Assembly: GCF_009177065.1 (NCBI RefSeq)
Contig: NZ_WEZF01000001.1
Coordinates: forward strand, 496,001 to 560,000
Source of the DNA: Tautonia marina
GTDB taxonomy: Bacteria > Planctomycetota > Planctomycetia > Isosphaerales > Isosphaeraceae
Length of the DNA: 64,000 nt
Direction: 5' to 3'
The translations under genes and the position numbers were made by a program. The notes under the pieces were generated by a model. The model was not told the DNA's origin. It searched no databases and saw only the letters and a program-made list of their open reading frames with translations. Positions 23,933-32,572 of the stretch are shown piece by piece (the stretch's first letter is position 1; each line of letters opens with the position of its first letter).

Positions 23933-24838
23933 TCAGGAGGGTCGAACCGCCAGCCCCGCATCGCGCCGACGCCTCAGGTCTTCGAGGGAAAGCTGAGGTC
24001 CGGCACCAATCAACGATCCGGCGATCGAGGCAATAATTGATGCGATCAGGGTCGCGAAGGTCCACCAGGCGGCCGTGGTCGCCCGGACATTGCTGCTCTG
24101 AGCCTGGGCCGCCTGAACGTCGGCGATTTGCTGATTCGTCAATCCGGCATCGACCAGTTGCGCCTCGGTCAGGGTCGGAGCCACGTTCGGCCCGGTCACC
24201 TGCTGAAGCATCCCGCCGACTCCAAGATTCAGCCCGAGGCCGGTCAGCACCACCACGGCGACGAAGATCGTGCCCCAGAGCAAGAGGCCGTAGATCATCG
24301 CCTCGTCCTTCCGCTCGCCAACGGTGCTTCGGCTGGTGACAAAGCCACCCATGAACAACGCGACAAGCAGCGAAATGGCAGCCCAGATCGCCGCGCCGAT
24401 GGCCAACGTGCTGCCGCCGACAGCGTCGGTCCCTGCCGTCGAGAGGCCAACGGCCACGCCCAGCGTTCCGAGCGACACATAAACCGTCAGCGCCACGACC
24501 GCTCCGGCCATCAAGGCGCTCCAGCTCACACGGCTGCCGACCGAGGTGACATCGTGCAGGCGAATCGTTTCGTCGTTGATGGTGCGGGTCATCCGGCGCT
24601 CATCCAGCCGCTCTCGGCCATTCCCAGCTTGACCGTTGGTTTCCGTGAAGTTCAACACGTGATCAAAAACACCATCCTGTCGATGGATGATGAGATTGAC
24701 TTCGCGGTCCCGAGCAAGGCTCTCGCCTTCCTCCACCGCGATCTCCTTGGTCGAGTATTCCGAGACGATTCCATCGTCTCCTTCCTGTTTGATTGCCCAA
24801 CGCTCCTCGTGGGGCACCACATGCAGATTCTTTGCCAT
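23933..24838 (-). CDS. DUF2188 domain fused to four-helix membrane protein
   Basis: Residues 1-62 match DUF2188 (NLHVVPHEERWAIKQEG, ending VNLIIHRQDGVF), a small domain usually found alone. A linker then leads to a membrane part with four predicted helices at about 108-130, 144-166, 180-206 and 257-280, Gly/Ala-rich, with a 50-residue Gln/Asn-rich outer loop between the last two. I do not recognise the membrane part as a named family. Start ATG 24838 is chosen because MAKNLHVVPH is the standard DUF2188 start and GAGGA precedes it. It sits between DUF1328 and PMP3 genes, which suggests a membrane-stress role by association only. Confidence 0.75.
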   Translation of the reverse strand: MAKNLHVVPHEERWAIKQEGDDGIVSEYSTKEIAVEEGESLARDREVNLIIHRQDGVFDHVLNFTETNGQAGNGRERLDERRMTRTINDETIRLHDVTSVGSRVSWSALMAGAVVALTVYVSLGTLGVAVGLSTAGTDAVGGSTLAIGAAIWAAISLLVALFMGGFVTSRSTVGERKDEAMIYGLLLWGTIFVAVVVLTGLGLNLGVGGMLQQVTGPNVAPTLTEAQLVDAGLTNQQIADVQAAQAQSSNVRATTAAWWTFATLIASIIASIAGSLIGAGPQLSLEDLRRRRDAGLAVRPS

Positions 24839-25103: not shown

Positions 25104-25213
25104 AAGAGTCTCCTTTTCCCCGGTTAAGGTCGGGGAAGTCGTGAGTCATGGTTACGGGTTGTGATTGTCGGTGTTATCAACACCTCCAAATTCATCCGTC
25201 GCTGGATTCAGAG

Positions 25214-25230
25214 AGCAAGACGTGTGCCAA
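25214..25230 (-). promoter_or_regulatory. Sigma-54 promoter for the DUF1328 group
   Basis: Read on the minus strand: TTGGCAC-ACGTC-TTGCT. The -24 GG and -12 GC are exactly 10 bp apart and all conserved positions of TGGCAC-N5-TTGCW are present. It points at the DUF1328 start 100 bp away. Confidence 0.85.
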
Positions 25231-25433
25231 AGTTTCACGATTTGCGAGGCCCGTCACCCGTCGACGTCATTTGCCCGCGATCCTGCGAGTTGGCTCGCGT
25301 GCGGAGGAGTCTCGTCAGAATCATGTGTTGCATTGACGATGGGGGACAGTCGAATGGTGCTGGCCCACTCGTAAAGACAGCCGCGCTTGACGATCCCTCG
25401 ATCAGACCGGTTCGGCTCGCGTCGCGGGAATGC

Positions 25434-25448
25434 TGAGGGTGTCCCTCA
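25434..25448. promoter_or_regulatory. Palindrome between the two sigma-54 promoters
   Basis: TGAGGG-TGT-CCCTCA, a perfect 6-bp inverted repeat with a 3-bp centre. It lies about 190 bp from the plus promoter and about 205 bp from the minus promoter, a normal distance for a sigma-54 activator site. Binding is inference. Confidence 0.4.
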
Positions 25449-25627
25449 CGAGAGGGTTGAATATGAGAAGAAACGCGCGATCCCGTCCGGGAACAGCGTG
25501 ACGGTTGGCACGTCGACGCGATTGCCATCGATGCCGGTTTGCCCTCCGCGCAGAGGTAGCCTGGTCACTCACGGCTCAGAGCGGTCAGGAGGCGTTCAGC
25601 TGCGCGGCATCGCTGAGCAGGAACGCT

Positions 25628-25643
25628 TGGCACGGCGATTGCT
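25628..25643 (+). promoter_or_regulatory. Sigma-54 promoter for the bPH/DUF2254 group
   Basis: TGGCACG-GCGA-TTGCT, an exact match to the extended -24/-12 consensus with GG (25629-25630) and GC (25641-25642) 10 bp apart. It shares TTGGCAC-N5-TTGCTCT with the divergent promoter. The downstream ATG is at 25799. Confidence 0.88.
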
Positions 25644-25798
25644 CTAGCTGGCTTCACGAAGACAAAGAGTGAGACCCGAGGGCGGCTCACGGCGAAGCTC
25701 GCCGCACAGCTCCTTCATGGGCAGGTCTGACCGCACCAATCGGAACTCCGTCGGGCCGGCCCGATCTCCGTAGCATCCCCGGTGAGGGAGAGGGATCG

Positions 25799-26458
25799 AT
25801 GAATCAGCAGTCAAGTCTTGTCTACAAGTGTCCGCATTGCCAGGCGAAGGCGGAAATTGGAGACGAGATGCTCGGCCAGGTTGTCAACTGCCCCCAATGC
25901 GAGCGGCCGTTTCGCGTCGAGGCTCCTCCCTCGTTTCCGATCAGCGACGACGAGGCCGGCTCGGTCATCCGCAAAGGGGGAGCACCGGAGGTCACTAACC
26001 CGGTCGATCAGGAACGCGTGCTGATCGTCTTGCATCCGGCGGTGCTCAGGCGTCGAGTTTTTCAGACGTCGGCTTCGATCCTGATCATCATCGCCGGCAT
26101 CGTCGCCATGTTCTGGGGGATGGCAAGTACCAACCCCTGGCTGGGCTGGGGCGGTCTGGCCGCCGCGGTGATTGGAGCCCTCGACCTGGTTTACTGGTGG
26201 TTCAAGTCGCTCTTCGTTACCCTCTCTGTGACCAACCGCCGGACGATCCTGCGGACCGGACTGTTCGCCAAGGCCACCAGCGAGGTGAACCACGACGATG
26301 TCCGCAACCTTCAGATTGATCAATCGGTGGTCTATCGAATGCTCAACATCGGTGACCTTCGGGTGTCGAGCGCCGGTCAGGATACCATCGAGATCCGGGC
26401 CCGGGCGATCCCCGATCCTGAAGGTGTGGCGGCCATCATCCGAGAACATCAGGATTAA
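25799..26458 (+). CDS. Zinc-ribbon plus bacterial PH-domain membrane protein
   Basis: The 219-residue protein starts with a four-cysteine zinc ribbon (CPHC at 11-14, CPQC at 31-34), then an acidic linker, two membrane helices (about 91-110 and 115-135) and a bacterial PH-like domain (bPH2, formerly DUF304, about 138-215) with the hallmark TLSVTNRRTILRTGLF and IPDPEGVAAIIREHQ. bPH proteins are small membrane-bound proteins, many of unknown function, some tied to envelope stress. ATG 25799 follows GAGGGAGAGGG. It is the first gene after the plus-strand sigma-54 promoter and is followed 99 bp later by a DUF2254 gene. Confidence 0.85.
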   Translation: MNQQSSLVYKCPHCQAKAEIGDEMLGQVVNCPQCERPFRVEAPPSFPISDDEAGSVIRKGGAPEVTNPVDQERVLIVLHPAVLRRRVFQTSASILIIIAGIVAMFWGMASTNPWLGWGGLAAAVIGALDLVYWWFKSLFVTLSVTNRRTILRTGLFAKATSEVNHDDVRNLQIDQSVVYRMLNIGDLRVSSAGQDTIEIRARAIPDPEGVAAIIREHQD

Positions 26459-26557
26459 CCTGTGCGAGACGATCCAGGATCTTCGTCAGTTCCGAACCCC
26501 AGTTCTCCAGGGGCTCGCATCGCTCGATCCTCCCGCCTGACCTACCCGGGAGGAACG

Positions 26558-28012
26558 ATGCGGCTCCGCTATCATTGGGACTGGTTGAGGTCGGGCTACC
26601 TGTTCGTTCCCTCGATCATGGTCTTGATGGCGGTGGTCCTGGCGCTGCTAGCCATCGAGCTGGACAGCTTCCTCTACAGCGATGGTCGCGTGATCGAACA
26701 CTGGTATTCCCAGGGAGGCCCCGAGGAATCCCGGACCATCCTGGGCATGATCGCCGGCTCGATGATCACGATTGTCGGCATCGTCTATTCGATCGCCATG
26801 GTCAACCTGACGCTCGCCTCCGATCAGTTTGGCCCACGCCTGATCCGCACGTTCATGACCGACATGGGCACGCAGCTCGTGCTCGGCGCGTTTCTCGCCA
26901 CGTTCGTTTACAGCGTGATGGTCCTGCTGGCCATCGAGAGCGGCGCGAACGATCCAGGGCCGAGCGCCGCGTCGGCAGCCCGGACGGGCGATGCCGATGC
27001 CGAGGTCTGGGCCGCCTTGCCCGAGCCGACCTCGTTCGCCCCGGTCATCTCGATCTGGCTTGGCGTTGCCCTGTCGATGGTCTGCCTGGGGATGCTGATC
27101 TACTTCATCCACCACGTCGCCCAGGCCATCCAGGCACCAAACGTGATCGACTCGGTCGCTCGAGAGCTGGAGCGGTCGATCCGCCGCCACTTCCCCGAGG
27201 CTCGAGAGTCGGTCGAAACAATCGGGCATCCCACCAATCGTGAAGCGATCGACGATGATCTGCCCCCGGATTTTGAGGACGAGGCTCGGCCCTTGACGGT
27301 GGCTGTCTCCGGGTATCTTCAGTTCATCGACCATGAAGTTCTTGTTCAGATCTGCTCGGAAGCTCAGCTCGTGATGCGGCTTGATCAACGCCCCGGAGAC
27401 TTCGTGGTGGCGGGCGGTTCGGTGGGCCTGGTCTGGCCGCCCGATCGCGTGGATGAAGAGGTCGAGCGTCGGCTCCGAAGCGTCTTCTTGATCGGGGTGC
27501 AGCGAACCCCTCCCGAGGATGTCGAGTTCTCGATCAGCCAGCTCGTCGAGATTGCCGTGCGGGCCCTTGGCAACAACGACCCGTTTACCGCCATCAACTG
27601 CGTCGATCGGCTGGGAGCCGCGATGTGCTTGCTGGTGGGACGGAAAATCCCTTCCCGCAAACGCTTCGACAGCGACGGACAAATCCGGGTCATCGCCCGA
27701 GCGACCCGCTTCGGCGGCATCATCAACACTGCGTTTGACCAGATTCGCCAGTACGGCGCCGACGACACGGCCCTGACCATCCGCTTGCTTGAGGTCATCG
27801 CCCTGATTGCCTCGCGTGTGGATAATTTGACCGATGGCGCCGCCTTGCTTCGTCAGGCGGTCATGATCGAACGAGGCAGCCGCCAGACGATCGTCGAGGA
27901 ATACGACCGCCGCGACATCGCCGAACGGTTCCAGGACATTCTCAACCAACTTGATCTGCAGGAAGTCACGGGAGAGGTCGATCGCTGGAAACCGCGACGA
28001 GCCAACGCCTAA
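26558..28012 (+). CDS. DUF2254 membrane protein
   Basis: The 484-residue protein has four predicted membrane helices (about 14-34, 61-82, 106-126 and 160-184) and a soluble C-terminal half of 300 residues. Motifs such as SMITIVGIVYSIAMVNLTLASDQFGPRL (split here as SMITIVGIVYSI and LASDQFGPRL) define DUF2254, a family of predicted membrane proteins of unknown function. ATG 26558 follows GGGAGGAA; the frame extends upstream to 26462 without similarity. It lies between the bPH gene and the hybrid kinase, all in one direction with gaps of 99 and 63 bp, so the three may form an operon. Confidence 0.88.
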   Translation: MRLRYHWDWLRSGYLFVPSIMVLMAVVLALLAIELDSFLYSDGRVIEHWYSQGGPEESRTILGMIAGSMITIVGIVYSIAMVNLTLASDQFGPRLIRTFMTDMGTQLVLGAFLATFVYSVMVLLAIESGANDPGPSAASAARTGDADAEVWAALPEPTSFAPVISIWLGVALSMVCLGMLIYFIHHVAQAIQAPNVIDSVARELERSIRRHFPEARESVETIGHPTNREAIDDDLPPDFEDEARPLTVAVSGYLQFIDHEVLVQICSEAQLVMRLDQRPGDFVVAGGSVGLVWPPDRVDEEVERRLRSVFLIGVQRTPPEDVEFSISQLVEIAVRALGNNDPFTAINCVDRLGAAMCLLVGRKIPSRKRFDSDGQIRVIARATRFGGIINTAFDQIRQYGADDTALTIRLLEVIALIASRVDNLTDGAALLRQAVMIERGSRQTIVEEYDRRDIAERFQDILNQLDLQEVTGEVDRWKPRRANA

Positions 28013-28075: not shown

Positions 28076-30976
28076 ATGCGTCACGCCAATATGGTTCCCC
28101 GCTATGCGATCGCCTTGCTGAGCGTCACCCTGGCGTTTGTCCTGAGATGGGTCATCGATCCGTTGGCCGATCAGGAGTTCGGCCCGTTTCTGTTCTTTGC
28201 CGGTGCCGTGACGGTCAGTGCCTGGTACGGCGGGTTGTTGCCCGGCCTGATGGCGCTCGGACTTTCGGTGGTCGCGTCGATCGTGGCCTTTTTGCCGCCG
28301 GTCGGCACGTTCTGGCTCTCCGGTCCCGGTTCGATCACGCTGGTCCTGGCATTCGTCCTTGAAGGCTTGATCATCTGCATGGTTTGTCAGATGTTGCACC
28401 AGGCGAGAGCCCGCGCGGAGCTGTCGACCGCCGAAGCTCGCGAGGCGCTCCGGGCACGCCGGACCAGCGAAACCCGGTTCCGCCGCCTGGCCGAGTCTGG
28501 CGTGATCGGCGTGATCGAGGGCCGCGACGAGATGATCGTCGAGGCAAATGATGCCTTTCTCCGGATGCTCGACTACCCGCGTGATCGACTGGCCAATCGG
28601 GGGTTGAGCGTGGCCGAAATCACCCCCGAGGACGAACGTGAGCACGATGTGCCTCGCTTTGCTCAGCTCTTCCGGACCGGAACACTGCCGCCCTTCGAGA
28701 AGCGTTACATGACGTCCGACGGCCAAGCGGTCCCGGTCTTGGTCGGGGGGGCTCTCATTGATCCGGGAGGGCTCGACTGGGCCGCGTTCGTGCTCGACCT
28801 CAGCCGACAGAAAATCGTCGAGCGCGAGCTGGCTCAGGCGATCGCTCGGGCCGAGGCGGCCAACCGGGCCAAGAGCGAGTTCCTGGCCGTTCTGAGCCAC
28901 GAGTTGATTACCCCGATGAACGCCATTCTCGGCATGAATCAACTGGCCATGACCGGCCAGCGCGATCCGATCCTCCGCGACTACCTGGCCACGGCCCAGG
29001 ACTCGGCCGAGGCGCTGCTCGCCTTGCTCAGCGACCTGCTCGATTACTCCTCGATCGAGGTCGGCGGCCTCGACCTTGACCCGGCTCCCTTCCAACTCAG
29101 GGCCATGCTCGATCGGGTCATCCGGCCGCTGGCCGACCGGGCCTCTCGCAAAGGTCTGGAACTGACAGCCGAGGTGGCCGACGCCGTGCCGGAGGTTCTG
29201 GTCGGAGATGCCCGTCGCCTTCGTCAGATCCTGGTGAACCTGCTCGACAACGCGATCAAGTTTACCGAGCAGGGAGACGTTACCCTGACCGTCGGGCTCG
29301 ACCAGCGCGACGACCCGGGGGCCGCTCCGGACGAGGTGAGCGTCTGGTTCGAGGTGGCCGATACGGGCATCGGGATCAGTGCCGAGGACCAGGGCCGAAT
29401 CTTCGCCCCCTTCACCCAGATCGACGCCTCGACCACCCGGCCGTACTCGGGGACCGGGCTGGGGTTGTCGATTTGCCGACAGATCGTGACCTTGATGGGG
29501 GGGGAGCTCCATCTGGAAAGCCAGTCGGGGCAGGGCAGCCGGTTCCGCGCCCTCATCCCGTTCCGAAACGCGGTTGAGGACGAGCCGAGGCCCTCGACCT
29601 CCCTGCCCGACCTGAGTGGTCTGCCGGTCCTGGTCGTTGATGATCGCCCGGCCAGTCGGTCTGCGGCCGAGTCGATTCTGGCCGGCTGGTCGATGCGGCC
29701 GGTGCCCGCCTCCGATGGCTCGACCGCGCTGGCCTTGCTGGCCGAGGCCGTGAATCGAGGGGAGCCGTTTCCTCTGGTCCTTGTCGATGCCCGGATGCCG
29801 GGCCTCGACGGCGTCACCGTGGCGTCCCGCATCCATCGAGAAGGACTGGCCGGTGCAACCATCTTGATGCAATCGCCGGCCGATCGCTCGTCGGATTCGA
29901 TCGCAGAAGCGAGGATTCCCGAGGTCGAGGCTGTCCTGGAGAAGCCGATCACCCCCGCTCGGCTGCTGGATGCGATCGTCAAGGCCCTGGAACCCGGTCC
30001 CCGAACCCACGAGGCGGAGAAGGGGGAACGCGGGCCGTCGCCGGCTCCACCCAGGTCGACTCCGGAGCGTTCCTTGCACATCTTGCTGGCCGAGGATACG
30101 CCCGCCAACCAGAAGCTCGCCCTGGCCGTGCTCAGGCGCCGAGGGCATCGGGTTGACCTGGCCGCCAACGGTCGAGAGGCGGTTGAACTGGCTCGCCGAT
30201 CGCGGTACGACCTGATCTTGATGGATCTCCAGATGCCAGTCATGGACGGACTTCAGGCCACCTGCGCTATCCGGGCCCTGAACGGATCGAACACCGCGAA
30301 TGTACCGATCGTCGCCCTGACTGCCCACACCTTGCCGGCCGACCGACAGCGGTGTCTTCAGGCTGGAATGGATCACTATCTCGCCAAGCCAATCGACATT
30401 CGAGAGCTTCTGAATGTGATCGAGTCTTATGGGTTTCGATCCAACGGTCGCTCGGGTCAGAACACGCTGCCGGAGCGAACGCTTGCTTCCTCCGGGAACG
30501 GCCCTCGACCAGACACCGTTGCCAACCTCAACGCCCACACCGACACTCAGATTGCGGGTTCGACCGATGCGAAGCCCTCGGTGGCGGAACCCGCGCAGGA
30601 GGAACAGGTGCATCACGATCAGACCCCGGTTTATGACCGTCAGGCCGCGGTGAAGCGGCTGGGAGGCGACGAGGAATTATTCCGCGATATGATCGGGTTC
30701 TTCCTCGAAGACTTCCCGGGGCTGCTCGACCAGCTTTGCCAAGGCTTACTGTCCGACGATGCCAGGGCGGTCGAACGGGCCGCTCACAGCCTCAAAGGGT
30801 TGACCGCCAGTTGCGGCTCGGGACCGGCCAGACAAGCCGCCGGGCGTGTCGAGCAGATCGGCCGAGACAACCGACTGGTCGATGCCCCCGAAGCGGTCGA
30901 GCACCTCGTTGCCGAGCTCCAACGCTTGCGAGACGTGCTGAAGGCCGATCGAGACTCGACGGCGGGAGAAGCATGA
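28076..30976 (+). CDS. Hybrid histidine kinase with two receivers and Hpt
   Basis: The 966-residue membrane kinase begins with a DUF4118-type bundle of about four helices (residues 9-110), then a PAS domain (about 130-245), HisKA with His275 in SHELITPMN, HATPase (N-box near Asn388, GIGIS and GTGLGLSI), a first receiver (Asp571), a second receiver (Asp717, Lys771) and a C-terminal Hpt domain (His904 in AAHSLKG). This is a complete internal phosphorelay: His, Asp, His, then out to an Asp of a response regulator. The natural target is the NtrC-type regulator whose gene converges with it 138 bp downstream. ATG 28091 is an alternative start. Confidence 0.93.
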   Translation: MRHANMVPRYAIALLSVTLAFVLRWVIDPLADQEFGPFLFFAGAVTVSAWYGGLLPGLMALGLSVVASIVAFLPPVGTFWLSGPGSITLVLAFVLEGLIICMVCQMLHQARARAELSTAEAREALRARRTSETRFRRLAESGVIGVIEGRDEMIVEANDAFLRMLDYPRDRLANRGLSVAEITPEDEREHDVPRFAQLFRTGTLPPFEKRYMTSDGQAVPVLVGGALIDPGGLDWAAFVLDLSRQKIVERELAQAIARAEAANRAKSEFLAVLSHELITPMNAILGMNQLAMTGQRDPILRDYLATAQDSAEALLALLSDLLDYSSIEVGGLDLDPAPFQLRAMLDRVIRPLADRASRKGLELTAEVADAVPEVLVGDARRLRQILVNLLDNAIKFTEQGDVTLTVGLDQRDDPGAAPDEVSVWFEVADTGIGISAEDQGRIFAPFTQIDASTTRPYSGTGLGLSICRQIVTLMGGELHLESQSGQGSRFRALIPFRNAVEDEPRPSTSLPDLSGLPVLVVDDRPASRSAAESILAGWSMRPVPASDGSTALALLAEAVNRGEPFPLVLVDARMPGLDGVTVASRIHREGLAGATILMQSPADRSSDSIAEARIPEVEAVLEKPITPARLLDAIVKALEPGPRTHEAEKGERGPSPAPPRSTPERSLHILLAEDTPANQKLALAVLRRRGHRVDLAANGREAVELARRSRYDLILMDLQMPVMDGLQATCAIRALNGSNTANVPIVALTAHTLPADRQRCLQAGMDHYLAKPIDIRELLNVIESYGFRSNGRSGQNTLPERTLASSGNGPRPDTVANLNAHTDTQIAGSTDAKPSVAEPAQEEQVHHDQTPVYDRQAAVKRLGGDEELFRDMIGFFLEDFPGLLDQLCQGLLSDDARAVERAAHSLKGLTASCGSGPARQAAGRVEQIGRDNRLVDAPEAVEHLVAELQRLRDVLKADRDSTAGEA

Positions 30977-31114
30977 CGTCGGGCAAATGGAGCAGAGAGC
31001 TTTATCAATTGTCAAAGAGTTTTGATGTTTGATTTCTTCTGGGCGTTTTGTTCAGACGTTTTGGTTTATTCTGATGTGTTTGTGGTCAAAACAAAGACCT
31101 GGTCGGGCGCAGGC

Positions 31115-32572
<1,458 letters not shown>

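Follow-up and report, generated by a model that had tools for sequence, protein, structure and literature searches.

Why should a single intergenic gap carry two divergent sigma-54 sites, and what would these sites control? The gap under study (positions 25104-25798, 695 bp) lies in the window, i.e., the whole 64-kb stretch of DNA that was analyzed. The original prediction saw in it the control region of a self-regulated envelope-stress island, similar in its logic to the Psp system. Our analysis points to a different setting. The locus probably consists of two membrane-gene operons that form one module of a larger stress regulon under sigma-54 in this lineage, with the neighboring activator and a repeat in the gap as its putative control.

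The motif TTGGCAC-N5-TTGCTCT is present in the gap in one copy per strand, and these are the sole two matches in the 64 kb when up to two mismatches are allowed. Shuffled sequences gave a mean of 0.25 matches and reached two in 5 of 100 cases. The predicted presence of the motif on both strands is thus borne out by the sequence and by the pattern search, with coordinates that were right within 1-2 bases. In both sites, GG and GC stand ten bases apart in the context TGGCAC-N5-TTGCW. The exact form of this shorter pattern is found 8 times in the 7.07-Mb genome, including the two occurrences in the gap (reversed-pattern control, 4). At this genome rate one expects 0.0008 sites per 695-bp gap, in agreement with the predicted frequency of about one chance site per thousand gaps, and the probability of at least two is about 3e-7. 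Once two mismatches are allowed, the same pattern turns up in the window no more often than expected (12 times versus 19); it is the exact matches that stand out. As predicted, each site is aimed at a nearby start codon, the minus site at that of DUF1328 (25103, minus strand) and the plus site at that of the zinc-ribbon/bPH gene (25799, plus strand). Transcription would start near 25203 and near 25654, respectively. A search for sigma-70 promoters in the region found 2, where shuffling gives 1.1. Both sites are very likely sigma-54 promoters (Table 1).

Table 1. Features of the module in the window (positions counted from the first base of the window) and sites before a conserved stretch of the genus genomes.
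Feature	Position	Strand	Basis or remark
PMP3 family proteolipid, 52 aa	23719..23877	minus	Pfam 1.3e-22
DUF2188 domain fused to a hydrophobic C-terminal domain	23933..24838	minus	Pfam DUF2188 2e-12
DUF1328 small membrane protein, 56 aa	24933..25103	minus	Pfam 9e-17
Extended motif TTGGCACACGTCTTGCTCT	25212-25230	minus	pattern search
Sigma-54 -24/-12 site TGGCACACGTCTTGCT, putative promoter of the DUF1328-DUF2188/membrane-PMP3 run	25214..25229	minus	pattern and conservation
Direct repeat GGTCA-N15-GGTCA, candidate enhancer (upstream activating sequence)	25563..25587	plus	65 bp upstream of the plus -24 site
Extended motif TTGGCACGGCGATTGCTCT	25627-25645	plus	pattern search
Sigma-54 -24/-12 site TGGCACGGCGATTGCT, putative promoter of the bPH-DUF2254-kinase run	25628..25643	plus	pattern and conservation
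Zinc-ribbon-like and bPH_2 membrane protein, 219 aa	25799..26458	plus	Pfam bPH_2 2e-15
DUF2254 predicted membrane protein	26462..28012	plus	Pfam 2.5e-116
Hybrid histidine kinase: DUF4118, PAS, HisKA, HATPase, two REC, Hpt	28076..30976	plus	Pfam
NtrC-family sigma-54 activator: REC, AAA+, HTH_8; 485 aa; GAFSGA	31115..32572	minus	Pfam
Sites before the conserved non-coding stretch	L008:1501, L245:1508	plus	
Sites before the conserved non-coding stretch	L265:1592, L177:1516	minus	

Pfam agrees with the identities proposed for the seven genes, except for the zinc ribbon, whose models fall below the Pfam cut-off in the 25799..26458 protein. By these domain assignments, the genes on both sides are mostly those of membrane proteins, as had been proposed. 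The gaps within each gene run are shorter than 100 bp, and the genes of a run may be co-transcribed. The activator gene (31115-32572), whose start was placed at the methionine ahead of the REC domain, is convergent with the rightward run. The gap between kinase and activator contains terminator-like hairpins at 31038-31056 (plus) and 31097-31114 (minus), a weak signal because 11 such hairpins were found in the region versus 6.8 expected. No known RNA family was found in the module at E 0.1. A 232-aa membrane protein (L181:1639-2337) is related to the window's DUF2188 fusion in the C-terminal half of the latter (42% over 71 aa) and has its own sigma-54 site in three of the genus genomes (G000, G041, and G042). 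A DUF1559 protein with an N-methylation motif is also encoded (Pfam); such a DUF1559-type protein is listed several times for R. baltica (PMC2754498). It helps to place the window in a planctomycete, probably one of the Isosphaeraceae, and the comparisons with Planctomycetia made below depend on this placement.

The arrangement is conserved in the genus, represented by four genomes (G000, which is the window's own, G041, G042, and G040) within a family set of 45 genomes that includes the window's. The order PMP3-DUF2188-DUF1328 / bPH-DUF2254-kinase is shared by all four, and in each of them both -24/-12 sites still precede the genes that they precede in the window. Loss of the sites from relatives that retain the gene order, named beforehand as the observation that would speak against the promoters, was found in none of them. 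The minus site reads TGGCACACGACTTGCC in G041, CGGCACGGGGCTTGCA in G042, and TGGCACGCGACGTGCA in G040, with two deviations: GTGC at -12 in G040 and a final C in G041. The plus site reads TGGCACGACGATTGCT, CGGCACGGTGATTGCA, and CGGCACGAAGTTTGCT in the same three genomes. Most of the gap is unalignable among the four genomes by MAFFT, with the plus sites of G042 and G040 out of register. Yet, a single high-scoring site is present on either strand in every one of the four gaps. The distance to the nearer end of the extracted stretch is 137-152 bp for the minus sites and 113-187 bp for the plus sites. A copied promoter or mobile repeat is an unlikely origin of the pair, because the N5 bases and the flanks differ between both sites and between species. 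Among the encoded proteins, DUF1328 is 91-100% identical in the three congeners and the bPH protein 74-91%; in the family, bPH relatives with at least 74% identity are confined to the four genus genomes. The bPH matches of the other family genomes are distant or partial (the best full-span one has 30% identity over residues 14-215, in G002), and the other module genes were not found in the stretches fetched from G011, G034, and G002.

Is the association of sigma-54 sites with DUF1328 a peculiarity of this locus? We searched for the pattern YGGCAY-N6-TGC, chosen after the first scores had been seen, within 300 bp upstream of DUF1328 genes. It was found before 10 of the 12 genes in the genus, 20 of 52 in the rest of the family (where 32 are without a site), 23 of 27 in the rest of the class (in 17 of 20 genomes), and 6 of 62 in the rest of the phylum, with 0 or 1 control matches per group. 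Pooled over the class, sites precede 53 of the 91 DUF1328 genes examined, compared to 0 of 91 for the reversed pattern, 0 for the opposite strand, and 1 for the complement (P 2e-21 against the reversed pattern, a value that is only a guide because genes of related genomes are not independent). These sites lie 78 to 262 bp upstream of DUF1328, and the columns outside the pattern also fit the consensus, with the T that opens TTGC present in 36 of 53 and TTGC followed by A or T in 37 of 53. The stricter YGGCAY-N5-TTGC gave 9 of 12, 19 of 52, 8 of 27, and 4 of 62 in the same groups. The first scoring, which took in the 400 bp ahead of each of 64 DUF1328 genes from 33 genomes of the family, had given 23 sites at 13.5 or more versus 2 on the opposite strand and 1 reversed; both opposite-strand matches are the divergent bPH promoter, in G042 and G040. 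With a threshold of 12.5, the count was 34 of 64 versus 2 and 6 in the controls. At 13.5 or more, the other families of the class had 18 of 27 (controls 0 and 0) and the rest of the phylum 7 of 62 (controls 1 and 0).

These counts leave out, for the family, one of 65 DUF1328 matches (an 18-residue fragment) and, for the phylum, the weakest 27 of the 116 matches outside the window's genome, of which 12 are in the class, where there were 39 in all. The phylum search covered 292 genomes drawn from a larger group, and a few upstream stretches were shortened by contig ends. In bacteria at large (80 DUF1328 loci, mostly from Pseudomonas) there was no clear sigma-54 signal: 3 of 80 reached 14.2 and 4 of 80 reached 13.5 (controls 0 and 0), and at 12.5 there were 8 versus 6 and 4 in the controls. 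A general link between DUF1328 and sigma-54 was rejected at this scale, since the counts at 12.5 are near the controls and the distances are scattered.

We also found sigma-54 sites before many other genes of the genus. The exact pattern YGGCAC-N5-TTGCW has 83 matches in the four genomes, versus 33 for the reversed pattern, of which three are without a locus and 30 could be compared. Intergenic positions account for 69 of the 83 sites and for 9 of the 30 reversed ones (P 2e-7), and a same-strand gene follows within 300 bp in 52 of 83 versus 3 of 30 (P 3e-7). The value of 52 is approximate: our crude gene caller misplaced some starts (bPH at 25868) and missed some genes. A Pfam scan of 29 downstream proteins, together with one control, left 11 without a match and gave about ten that are of stress type by name. 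Genes behind exact sites include those for Mn-catalase and Hsp20 (G000), GSP26-like oxidase (G000 and G041), ferritin/Dps-like protein and glutaredoxin (G040), CsbD and Usp (G042), CsrA (G040, with a relative in G041), G6PD (G040 and G041), and, in all four genomes, an AI-2E transporter and an amidase. For the two GSP26-like sites, the nearest downstream gene of the gene caller is at 353 bp. In other bacteria, CsbD, GSP26-like oxidase, Mn-catalase, and Dps count among the general stress genes. It speaks against the regulon reading that, for most of the stress genes named, an exact site was seen in no more than two of the four genomes. Further genes behind sites are YgaP-like/cyclase, arginine decarboxylase, DinB-like, trehalase-like, ArsR-type, diacylglycerol kinase, and methyltransferase genes.

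Sites precede DUF1328 throughout the class and various stress genes at other loci of the genus. These findings are better explained by a broad stress regulon than by an envelope module standing alone, and the island does not look self-contained. From the distribution of these sites, it seems likely that the module belongs to such a wider regulon.

Several other observations were made among the exact sites of the genus. Some of these sites are probably due to chance, namely, those inside FolD (L007) and inside a Usp gene (L188), and also that of L199, which we judged to lie within a B12-binding-like frame although the gene caller put it among the 52. A frame that we named a KaiC-like ATPase from its sequence starts 53 bp after a site in G040 (L252, G040:C1:7949797). 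In three genus genomes (L192, L179, and L251) a site precedes the gene of a secreted-looking protein of 176-180 aa that has no Pfam match, and in all three the start of an NtrC-type activator gene lies no more than ~0.8 kb away on that contig and strand. Finally, in all four genomes an exact site stands before ~200 bp of strongly conserved, apparently non-coding sequence. The structure predicted from the four sequences has 58 pairs, 7 of which are changed on both sides, and 99.6% of its cells are paired, compared to 37-53% in slid controls. Among 500 shuffles, the number of both-side pairs was reached in 6, the covariation score in 0, and the number of further pair types in 312. The stretch has no Rfam match at E 0.1, and it is a candidate for a sigma-54-driven structured small RNA.

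The presence of sigma-54 promoters raises an additional question: which activator works them? The genome has rpoN (Sigma54_DBD 1e-62) and 19 matches to Sigma54_activat, 13 of them at E <1e-20; the weak ones mean little because 14 of 14 control genomes also matched. The NtrC-type regulator predicted at the far end of the module is there, directly after the kinase, in G000, G041, and G040. It was not found in the 20-kb stretch of G042, where an ortholog (85%) is on another contig, C80. Its identity to the proteins of the three congeners is 85-97% and does not exceed 60% elsewhere in the family (35 candidates scored per genome). Its domains follow the order REC (Response_reg 4e-27), sigma-54 AAA+, and HTH_8 (Pfam), and its contact loop is GAFSGA, not GAFTGA, in all four orthologs. 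We read GAFSGA as a variant of the loop that contacts sigma-54, a point that weighs against the proposed mechanism. A crude pattern search of the 19 activator-domain loci found GAFTGA in 5, GAFSGA in 2 (this activator and L135), and nothing in 12. The 600 bp upstream of the activator gene contain no good sigma-54 site in any of the four genomes (best scores 11-12.5 of 15.2) and no GGTCA repeat. With no such site in these 600 bp, sigma-54 control of the activator itself was rejected, and self-regulation, which had been part of the original prediction, can hold for the kinase in the rightward run but is not supported for the activator.

The GGTCA repeat in the gap was first noticed by eye and counted afterwards. 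The form GGTCA-N15-GGTC precedes the plus site by 65 bp in the window and in G041, by 69 bp in G042, and by 67 bp in G040. Its distance to the minus site is not kept, being 334 bp in the window, 203 bp in G041, 110 bp in G042, and 98 bp in G040. Counted on both strands, it has 4 occurrences in the 64 kb of the window; the three 20-kb stretches of the congeners have 2, 1, and 1. When GGTC-N16-GGTC was searched with a site 30-60 bp behind it, the 45 family genomes gave 8 matches and the reversed control 5. Four of the 8 are the module promoter in the genus genomes; of the others, G040 has one, and so do G010, G014, and G023. The module promoter is the sole place with repeat and site in three of the four genus genomes. 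Outside the module, the matches are about as frequent as in the reversed control, so the combination is at background there. The repeat is a candidate enhancer. No shared enhancer motif was found across the 53 class DUF1328 promoters.

These data allow for the possibility that the promoters are real but are worked by a different, global activator, the neighboring NtrC-type gene being a bystander. The 13 strong activator-domain matches in the genome would provide candidates, the G042 ortholog is on another contig, and the combination of repeat and site is found at no other DUF1328 promoter. Furthermore, seven family genomes with a site before DUF1328 (G010, G014, G017-G020, and G026) have no relative of this activator at 1e-110 among the 35 candidates scored per genome, so other activators must serve DUF1328 there. 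Against this stands the position of the activator, which adjoins the module in three of the four genus genomes, and the fact that its orthologs (85-97%) and the repeat co-occur in the same four of the 45 searched genomes. We regard a global activator as a serious possibility, if a somewhat improbable one. As to whether the neighboring activator is the cognate one, we give about equal weight to yes and to no. Our confidence in the module as a whole is a compromise between the strong case for the promoters, the good one for the regulon, and this evenly balanced one for the activator.

A second possibility is a dedicated envelope-stress module that works like Psp, answers membrane damage with small membrane proteins, and is limited to this island. 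The Psp system of E. coli also has a sigma-54 promoter and small membrane proteins as products, and PspF chains match the AAA+ part of the activator at 1e-60, within the same superfamily. Most products of the locus look like membrane proteins (Pfam). A search that matched 9 of 14 control genomes found PspA/IM30 in none of the four genus genomes, so its part could be played by a different system. Yet, the same result leaves the module without a PspA-like partner, and its gene set is unrelated to that of Psp. PspF is described as having no signal-recognition domain (PMC3162934), whereas the activator has a REC domain, with a kinase nearby, and scores 275.5 bits where the pspF cut-off is 443.55; it is not a PspF-type activator without a signal domain. 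In addition, the sites of the genus that precede soluble stress proteins (Mn-catalase, Hsp20, ferritin) suggest a response broader than the envelope. We therefore think a Psp-like island unlikely. The predicted analogy stands for the sigma-54 promoters with their AAA+ activator and for the membrane products, and goes no further. Of the original prediction as a whole, the divergent conserved sites, the membrane gene runs, rpoN, and, in three of four genomes, the activator were recovered, while the self-regulation of the activator, the likeness to Psp, and the isolation were not.

It could also be that the protein bound at the GGTCA repeat is not the sigma-54 activator but a repressor, or a response regulator of OmpR type, by which the rightward promoter is modulated. 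HTH_8 activators are usually thought to bind inverted repeats, and the GGTCA repeat is direct; direct repeats of regular period are typical of winged-helix response regulators. The distance of the repeat is kept to the plus site (65-69 bp) and not to the minus site (98-334 bp). Still, we see no other conserved element between the promoters in the four-gap alignment (by eye), and a sigma-54 promoter needs an activator (PMC4641369). We regard this alternative as rather improbable. Last, chance matches to a consensus that is short, and whose two-mismatch form is unenriched in the window, can be dismissed as a most improbable source of two exact sites in a single gap that are kept in all four genus genomes and recur ahead of DUF1328 in the class where the reversed control is zero.

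How would the two-operon membrane module operate within the stress regulon? Sigma-54 may do in this lineage the work of sigma-S or sigma-B elsewhere. A membrane or osmotic signal would be read by the kinase (DUF4118 and PAS), whose Hpt domain could pass it to the REC domain of the NtrC-type activator (31115-32572). The latter, having no sigma-54 site, would be made by another route. It would bind the GGTCA-N15-GGTC repeat at 25563, between the promoters, and open the sigma-54 polymerase on both sides. The leftward promoter would then drive DUF1328, the DUF2188/membrane fusion, and PMP3, and the rightward one the bPH protein, DUF2254, and the hybrid kinase. The rightward run includes the kinase gene, so that induction would raise the level of the sensor and generate a positive feedback. 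The small membrane proteins may act protectively.

In its REC-AAA+-HTH_8 order, the activator resembles the type Ia regulators NtrC, ZraR, and AtoC (PMC3162934), a source that describes sigma-54 in terms of the "bacterial exterior." Its closest solved relatives by sequence are the NtrC-family chains 4l4u and 1ny5, followed by ZraR 1ojl. It differs from this type in falling below the cut-off of the 25 NCBIfam models listed (116 matched), in its GAFSGA loop, and in its likely partner, a DUF4118 hybrid kinase with Hpt. The regulons of sigma-S, sigma-B, and EcfG have the same kinds of target but differ from the present case, in which the promoters are of sigma-54 type and an activator is needed. 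One of these targets, YqaE, is a PMP3 protein. In Salmonella, DUF1328 (YtjA) and YqaE are among the small genes under sigma-S (PMC5437024).

The closest precedents are from the planctomycetes. In Planctomycetia, sigma-54 promoters have been predicted before UspA, MscS, chaperone, and CsrA genes, and NtrC-type regulators are also enriched (PMC12316311); DUF1328 and COG5487 are absent from the main text of that paper. R. baltica responds to each of heat, cold, and salt by inducing Mn-catalase, Dps, and pyridoxamine oxidase, and one of its common stress genes, the thioredoxin RB10378, is cited as having a proposed sigma-54 promoter (PMC2754498). This regulon and this transcriptome resemble ours in their Usp, chaperone, CsrA, Mn-catalase, and Dps-type targets. 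The same R. baltica study reports rpoN down under salt and not regulated under heat, which counts against the stress-regulon reading. The titles and abstract openings of the literature on DUF1328/COG5487 and on planctomycete sigma-54 and stress revealed no link between DUF1328 and sigma-54. Outside the planctomycetes, one may compare Chlamydia, a member of the PVC group. The sigma-54 regulon of Chlamydia trachomatis likewise ties sigma-54 to membrane reorganization, but it concerns the conversion to the infectious form and secretion effectors (PMC7482065).

The usual picture of sigma-54 is that of a specialist, in charge of nitrogen, motility, and the cell exterior. The class-wide sigma-54 sites before a gene that is under sigma-S elsewhere, with a reversed control of zero, make sigma-54 control of stress at the level of the class directly testable. 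The module is a compact test case, with both promoters, the candidate enhancer, the sensor, and the activator in about 9 kb. Tentatively, and at a confidence somewhat short of probable, we suggest that in this class (probably Planctomycetia) sigma-54 took over the general stress response that sigma-S, sigma-B, or EcfG runs elsewhere. DUF1328 would be its most constant target, the divergent pair would form a dedicated membrane arm that has an enhancer of its own and feedback through the kinase, and the regulon would include a structured small RNA. If this is true, the response would be built from promoters that are tightly off, with a separate kinase-activator input for each stress.
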